From Verrucomicrobiota bacterium (GTDB taxonomy: Bacteria > Verrucomicrobiota > Verrucomicrobiia > Chthoniobacterales > UBA10450): a stretch of 37,427 nt of DNA. The stretch spans positions 1 to 37,427 of the forward strand of contig QHOX01000065.1 in assembly GCA_003219465.1 (NCBI GenBank). The letters are read 5' to 3'. A program made the translations under genes and the position numbers. Positions 29,639 through 30,575 of this stretch are shown here, piece by piece. Below the pieces are notes generated by a model that saw only the letters and a list, made by a program, of their open reading frames with translations, ran no database searches and was not told where the DNA came from. Within the stretch, counting starts at the first letter, position 1, and each line of letters begins with the position of its first letter.

Positions 29639-29949
29639 TTGCTGTCCTTAATCGCTTTCGGTCATCTTTCCGGAAACTTGGAACGATTATACGCAGTTTG
29701 TATTTGCCGCAAAACGTAACTCTCGAAAAGCGCGAGGCCCGGCGGAACCGTTCCGCGGAAGAGGTAAATTTCGCTCGTAGTCAGGGGTTTAGTGAAGAAG
29801 CTCGGCTCGTTCGGCGCTTTACCCTCGTCTAAAGACAACAGGTTCAGTATCAAACACTTATAACAATTTTGCGGTAAAAAGACTGCTTCGCTTGTCACTA
29901 GATTAGAGGCCACTACATTACTTTGCCGCGTTTATTTTGGAGCTTGGAA
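29639..29949. other. 311-base intergenic region between rodA and the SprT-like gene
   Basis: The divergent genes rodA (minus) and the SprT-like gene (plus) face away from each other, so promoters for both should lie here. It is AT-richer than its surroundings. A short minus-strand frame (29662-29913) and a plus-strand frame overlap it, but neither has coding character or a ribosome-binding site. I find no RNA gene. A candidate promoter is listed separately. Confidence 0.6.
29892..29919 (+). promoter_or_regulatory. Candidate sigma70-type promoter for the SprT-like gene
   Basis: TTGTCA (29892-29897) and TACATT (29914-29919) with a 16-base spacer; the start codon lies 30 bases downstream of the -10 box. 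A GGAG ribosome-binding site (29938-29941) precedes the ATG at 29950 by about eight bases. The -35 matches five of six consensus bases and the -10 is weaker. Confidence 0.4.
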
Positions 29950-30411
29950 ATGGGTAGGAAGAAAAAAACAACCAAACGAAAACTCGCGCACCCGAAGCTG
30001 CCCATGCAGCGGCAGTTAAATTTGCAACACGAGGGGACGCATTTCGATCTGCGCGCGATTTTTGATGATTTAAACCAGCGGCACTTTCGCAAACGTCTTC
30101 GCGGCTACAAAGTGGTCTGGGGACGTCGGCGAAAGCATCAACCCAGAGAACAATTCGTTTTTGGCACAATCCAGGAAGAAGATCGGGTGATTCGGATCAA
30201 TCCTGCGCTGGACCAGCCGTTCGTGCCGCTGTGGTTTTTGCGATACGTGCTTTATCACGAGATGCTGCATTCAGTTGTGCCGGACGAAACGCTCTCGCGA
30301 AATCGCCGGCGCGTTCACACGGAAGAATTCAATCGTCGTGAGCGCCAATTTCCCGATTATCGGCGAGCCCACCGCTGGGAAGACGAAAATCTGTCGCGAT
30401 TTCTGCGGTAA
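29950..30411 (+). CDS. SprT-like zinc metalloprotein
   Basis: A 153-residue basic protein. The zinc motif HEMLH (residues 103-107, in VLYHEMLHSVV) and a following histidine in RVHTEEFNRRE form the expected ligands of the SprT/M48-like group. FDLRAIFDDLNQRHFRKRL matches the SprT domain start, with GTIQEEDRVIRINPALDQ in the middle. The lysine-rich N-terminus (GRKKKTTKRK) suggests nucleic-acid contact. SPRTN-type relatives cut protein-DNA crosslinks, but the bacterial role is not established. ATG 29950 is chosen over 29923 because of the well-placed GGAG. Confidence 0.84.
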   Translation: MGRKKKTTKRKLAHPKLPMQRQLNLQHEGTHFDLRAIFDDLNQRHFRKRLRGYKVVWGRRRKHQPREQFVFGTIQEEDRVIRINPALDQPFVPLWFLRYVLYHEMLHSVVPDETLSRNRRRVHTEEFNRRERQFPDYRRAHRWEDENLSRFLR

Positions 30412-30425
30412 ACTCAGCAGCAGAG

Positions 30426-30575
30426 CTAGCGCGTTTGCGTAATCGGCGCCTGATACGGTCTTTCAGACGGTGACAGCGTCGTCGCTACGTTCTTTTTGAT
30501 CAGGTACCAAAGCGTCGTCGCGAGCAGGAGCGAGATCAACTTCGCGCGCCAGTTTTTCAGAATCAGTCTCTTCAT
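30426..30575 (-). CDS. Small CdaR/YbbR-like membrane-anchor protein overlapping cdaA
   Basis: From ATG 30575, 49 residues: MKRLILKNWRAKLISLLLATTLWYLI then a short polar tail. This matches the N-terminal membrane anchor that begins YbbR/CdaR proteins (K/R-rich start, NW-x-x-K-L-x-SLLLA-x-x-LW). The anchor is present, but the YbbR repeats that normally follow are absent. Its 5' part overlaps the 3' end of cdaA by 113 bases in another frame, and cdaR normally follows cdaA. A shortened CdaR, or a remnant kept as a small protein, is the best reading. Experimental evidence is lacking. Confidence 0.6.
   Translation of the reverse strand: MKRLILKNWRAKLISLLLATTLWYLIKKNVATTLSPSERPYQAPITQTR

Follow-up and report, generated by a model that had tools for sequence, protein, structure and literature searches.

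A putative anchor-only CdaR encoded by a small gene overlapping cdaA in Candidatus Udaeobacter

A small gene at the 3' end of cdaA

The window analyzed here is a whole stretch of 37,427 nucleotides (nt) from a Verrucomicrobiota bacterium of the genus Candidatus Udaeobacter (contig QHOX01000065.1). It contains a 49-amino acid (aa) open reading frame (ORF) that overlaps the 3' end of cdaA in the +1 phase, and we designated it mini-cdaR. The ORF (30426-30575, minus strand) translates to MKRLILKNWRAKLISLLLATTLWYLIKKNVATTLSPSERPYQAPITQTR*. The original prediction had placed a miniature CdaR-like anchor at exactly these coordinates, out of frame with cdaA over 113 bases, and both the positions and the overlap were correct. 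The partner gene encodes a bona fide CdaA, because the product exceeded the curated cut-off of TIGR00159 (213.4 bits; cut-off 188.8) and also matched the Pfam families DAC (PF02457) and CdaA_N (PF19293), thus carrying the cyclase domain together with a transmembrane (TM) domain. Scans of the mini-cdaR protein against Pfam and NCBIfam gave no match, and since neither collection has a model that matches the protein of the window, this gene is easily missed. The genome of the window has a single mini-cdaR copy.

Conservation of the frame was analyzed in 35 genomes of Candidatus Udaeobacter, and the divergence of the overlap was calculated over 29 species. mini-cdaR was present in 33 of the 35 genomes, in one of them (G031) solely as a second copy that is not next to cdaA. 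The remaining two were a genome without a cdaA match (G010) and one in which the contig stops inside cdaA (G019). A search for stops showed that the mini frame was uninterrupted in all relatives of the genus in which the locus is intact. The two frames are separable because the third codon positions of mini-cdaR are the first positions of cdaA. In upstream 36-codon windows of cdaA, used for comparison, the divergence was 0.352–0.497 at third positions and 0.016–0.157 at first positions. In the overlap, the third positions of cdaA were nearly frozen (0.052) and the first positions, which are the wobble positions of mini-cdaR, were freed (0.147). The ratio of third- to first-position divergence was therefore 0.35, as compared with a minimum of 2.24 upstream. 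The expectation that relatives keep the ORF under purifying selection in its own frame was thus borne out. The constraint switches at the ATG of mini-cdaR: the third-position divergence was 0.65 at codon 254 of cdaA, while codons 255–256 (TAT GAA), which contain this start codon, were invariant in all 29 species. Among 51 distinct changes in the overlap, 27 were synonymous in mini-cdaR and nonsynonymous in cdaA, and 14 were the reverse (80 and 72 are possible, respectively).

A null model was made by fixing the CdaA residues and redrawing the synonymous codons in 300 runs. The identity of the mini protein within the overlap was 93%, versus 36% (standard deviation 0.8%) in the null. About half of the redrawn sequences acquired a stop in the mini frame, and all 29 frames stayed open in none of the 300 runs. 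The open mini frame is far beyond chance. Within the overlap, the constraint is stronger on the mini frame, and the tail of CdaA therefore seems to be the part that was overprinted. Selection was also evident from the ratio of nonsynonymous to synonymous differences (pN/pS) of mini genes with little or no overlap, which was 0.07 (bootstrap 0.02–0.13) in the lineage of a genome that we take as Methylacidiphilum infernorum V4 (G433), 0.31 in the Akkermansia lineage and 0.28 in the Prosthecobacter/Verrucomicrobium family. These results clearly indicated that the 49-aa ORF is a real gene under strong selection, and neither a chance frame nor a decaying remnant.

The features of the locus are listed in Table 1. 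The stop of the folP-like gene overlaps the start of cdaA by 4 nt, and folP, cdaA and mini-cdaR probably form one operon. The end of the SprT-like gene is located 14 nt beyond the stop of mini-cdaR.

Table 1. Features at the mini-cdaR locus of the window
Feature	Position	Strand	Characteristics or basis
mini-cdaR (anchor-only cdaR), 49 aa	30426..30575	-	positively charged N-terminus, predicted helix at about residues 9-33, tail of about 16 residues
cdaA, membrane diadenylate cyclase, 291 aa	30463..31338	-	TIGR00159, PF02457, PF19293
cdaA/mini-cdaR overlap, 113 nt, two reading frames, mini-cdaR frame dominant	30463..30575	-	codon-position divergence
folP-like dihydropteroate synthase gene, upstream of cdaA	31335..32186	-	ORF table; family from sequence inspection only
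SprT-like metalloprotease gene (HEMLH motif), convergent	29923..30411	+	ORF table; family from sequence inspection only

Homology to the CdaR anchor and distribution in the phylum

A profile of the mini protein was built from 21 members of the order and searched in 383 genomes of the phylum. Within the class, the matches were short frames adjoining cdaA. Outside the class, they were usually the N-termini of 300–430 aa frames that also hold YbbR domains, and they included the N-termini of 308–329 aa CdaR proteins encoded next to cdaA. Alignment of the mini set with the anchors of full-length CdaR by hhalign gave a probability of 97.4% and an E-value of 1.3e-11 over 34 columns. Judged from these profiles, mini-cdaR and the N-terminal membrane anchor of CdaR are homologous. 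The Pfam YbbR model (PF07949) had no match in the mini ORF, in the genome of the window or in the order, and a full-length cdaR was likewise looked for elsewhere in that genome, with no YbbR protein found in the assembly, which is 88.8% complete. In the whole class, the scan flagged only two genomes (G343 and G404), with short CdaRs of 134 and 136 aa carrying one YbbR each.

Because the YbbR domains are absent, the mini protein falls outside the present definition of the CdaR/YbbR family, and we file it as a derived, anchor-only variant of CdaR. It has the N-terminal anchor homology and the gene position of this family, downstream of or overlapping cdaA, and lacks the YbbR domain. glmM, the next gene of the family operon, does not follow in the window, where the convergent SprT-like gene comes next; in many relatives, mini-cdaR lies between cdaA and glmM. 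The reduction to the anchor alone, as originally predicted, is supported by the profile homology, the synteny, the purifying selection in its own frame, the lack of YbbR in the genome, and anchor-CdaA fusions elsewhere. As to glmM itself, it does not adjoin cdaA in Candidatus Udaeobacter, unlike in other families of the order, and the incomplete assembly of the window gave only a sub-threshold GlmM match of 58 bits (cut-off 447; G000:C23:34745-35425).

mini-cdaR resembles CdaR of the Bacillota, encoded in a cdaA-cdaR-glmM operon, in its place behind cdaA and, in many relatives, before glmM. The N-terminal single-helix anchor with the pattern K-x6-A-x3-W-x2-I and the expected N-in topology are also alike. 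On the other hand, a typical CdaR has three or four YbbR domains on the outer face (PMC10243994), while the mini protein has none, and its length in the class is 41–111 aa (median 49) as compared with 308–329 aa in relatives outside the class. Single-YbbR variants of 134–137 aa (L149, L161 and, by length and tree place, L269) share the locus position and the anchor, but they keep one YbbR, and the CdaA tree places them outside the anchor-only clade. No description of an anchor-only CdaR was found in the literature on YbbR in Verrucomicrobia, on CdaR/CdaA and on cyclic di-AMP (c-di-AMP) of Akkermansia, in which subscription papers were mostly outside our coverage.

Co-occurrence was counted by hand from the profile-search tables, with an E-value below 1e-38 defining a strong CdaA. 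The anchor was carried by 74 of the 75 class genomes with a strong CdaA-type cyclase and by none of the 61 with only a distant DAC protein. The anchor-only CdaR is not a local reduction but the usual state in most of the class. Named loci with the anchor include Candidatus Udaeobacter sp. AEW3 (G006, L208) from the genus of the window, Rubritalea marina DSM 17716, Prosthecobacter sp., Roseibacillus sp. and Chthoniobacter-labelled genomes. The gut bacterium Akkermansia muciniphila ATCC BAA-835, which we take genome G168 to be, also appears to carry it. In the Akkermansia lineage (L120-L138), the C-terminus of the mini protein is a conserved EIRRSHP tail, possibly a periplasmic contact motif, which is also found in a CdaA fusion (L133). 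Excluding in-frame fusions and loci with unreliable automatic stop finding (136, 138, 744), the position of the mini start relative to the cdaA stop ranged from -155 to +33 nt in relatives of the order and class. The 113-nt overlap is only one of many arrangements, some relatives having no overlap or a 4-nt ATGA overlap, and an overlap as long as this is a trait of the lineage.

In a CdaA tree of 74 rows, 38 anchor-only and 3 fused rows were placed in one well supported branch (99/95). The rows of family f47 (48–69 aa, ATGA overlap) formed a separate branch among full-length relatives, and L268 was another isolated case. Because of these separate positions, the reduction of CdaR to the anchor seems to have happened more than once. 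The f47 loci (L164-L171) belong to another class of the phylum and always have the 4-nt ATGA overlap; their anchor-only CdaR is apparently independent in origin.

Fusions, second copies and alternative explanations

In-frame fusions of CdaA and the anchor were found in Verrucomicrobium sp. BvORR106 (L256; L130 comes from an identical or almost identical genome) and in a member of the genus taken as Akkermansia (L133). They join the anchor to CdaA in one chain, as do the streptococcal CdaA-CdaR fusions (PMC10243994), but their fused part is the anchor alone, and the proteins of the window are separate. A different arrangement was observed in L159 and L160 (G353 and G277), in which the frame of a highly divergent DAC protein (about 402 aa) continues without a break through a CdaR-like anchor and a YbbR-like region. 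This region was read by inspection and had no Pfam flag, and the other DAC matches in the family to which these two loci belong are all distant.

In other genomes of the genus, at least eight loci (L056-L063) have a further mini copy without an intact cdaA. The N-terminal segment is duplicated in these copies (KNWRTKLISIL...LENWRAKLISL; e.g., L059 at about 1711–1893 and L060 at about 1582–1763), and decayed debris of the cdaA 3' end lies upstream of most of them. Their pN/pS was 0.35–0.38. Several are located near a small FHA-domain gene.

The second copies without cdaA, and glmM as the next gene in many relatives, would fit a small membrane protein with a partner other than CdaA, e.g., GlmM or a transporter, that is co-encoded for dosage. 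We consider this unlikely, because the presence of the mini gene tracks CdaA closely, two lineages have the anchor joined to CdaA, the mini protein retains the helix-face residues of CdaR anchors, and no glmM adjoins mini-cdaR in the window. The natural fusions, together with the +1 phase shared by 87 of 93 overlaps, would also be expected if programmed frameshifting were to yield the product mostly as a C-terminal extension of CdaA. However, the onset of the constraint is abrupt and falls on a conserved ATG, the spacing relative to cdaA is variable, with a 4-nt overlap or none in some relatives, no slippery site was noticed, and a fixed phase is equally expected from common ancestry of the overlap, and therefore this explanation is very improbable. 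The loss of the YbbR domains and the variable tail could suggest a decaying rest of a lost cdaR, open only through the conservation of cdaA across it. This carries hardly any weight, since the constraint tracks the mini frame, purifying selection continues where there is little or no overlap, and the gene is kept throughout the strongly supported branch of 41 sampled sequences; the codon-position test rejected both this relic and a chance frame. Conservation of the overlap as an RNA or DNA element, for which its high nucleotide conservation would speak, can practically be set aside, because the variation is concentrated at the third codon positions of mini-cdaR and the class as a whole preserves the protein pattern even though the gene differs in position and overlap.

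The membrane helix and its proposed role

AlphaFold predicted residues 9–33 of the mini protein as a helix. The best hydrophobic 15-mer has a mean Kyte-Doolittle value of 2.1, and because the net charge is +3.4 before and 0 after this stretch, an N-in topology is expected. The most conserved residues, W9, K12, L16, A19, W23 and I26, all lie within 100 degrees of one helix face, and the conservation moment at 100 degrees was 0.544 versus 0.202 in the null (p=0.0006). Anchors of full-length CdaR have the same spacing of K, A, W and I. CdaR is reported to bind CdaA through their TM domains (PMC10243994), and YbbR to interact with the TM region of CdaA in two-hybrid tests (PMC6368335). The fusions and the conserved face indirectly support binding of the mini anchor to CdaA through its TM helix. 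In a mixed alignment of CdaA and the mini protein, the mini rows were seemingly set on the N-terminus of CdaA, and this alignment was dropped.

From these observations, we propose with a probability of roughly 0.75 that mini-cdaR encodes a functional single-pass, N-in, anchor-only CdaR, which packs on the CdaA helices and supports or tunes the cyclase without an external YbbR sensor. The extracytoplasmic YbbR domains of CdaR would have been lost in an ancestor shared by most of the class, and the N-terminal membrane helix would have been retained, its coding sequence lying immediately after cdaA or overlapping it. This single helix, with its N-terminus inside, would pack its conserved face on the TM helices of CdaA, as reported for the TM domain of full-length CdaR, and the protein may act as a constitutive subunit that stabilizes, assembles or tunes CdaA. 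Several points weigh against this proposal. There is no clear Shine-Dalgarno sequence ahead of the ATG, the hydrophobic stretch is short, with KK after it, and the tail beyond residue 33 is variable. AlphaFold models of the mini protein and of the L256 fusion gave helices and no usable contact evidence. Furthermore, the reported sign of CdaR regulation differs between species (PMC9259658, PMC8316131), and therefore the direction of an effect of the mini protein on the cyclase is not predictable.

The function of CdaR has been described as not known (PMC10243994), and its YbbR domains are considered to sense a signal of unknown nature (PMC9259658). c-di-AMP released by Akkermansia muciniphila is reported, in work cited in PMC10243994, to matter for cancer immunotherapy. 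Because most of the class keeps the anchor-only form, our results suggest that the anchor is the working core of CdaR. The function of the anchor would be separable from that of the sensor, since the anchor-only clade has no YbbR domain left and still maintains the anchor under strong selection. Tentatively, the essential core of CdaR might be the membrane helix and not the YbbR sensor. A YbbR-free CdaR of about 50 residues would then be an obligatory intramembrane subunit of CdaA that sets the c-di-AMP output in most of the class and in one further lineage of the phylum that acquired it independently, and the extra copies in some Udaeobacter genomes would now be separate regulators. The anchor-only clade makes the question of anchor versus sensor directly testable in cultured organisms.
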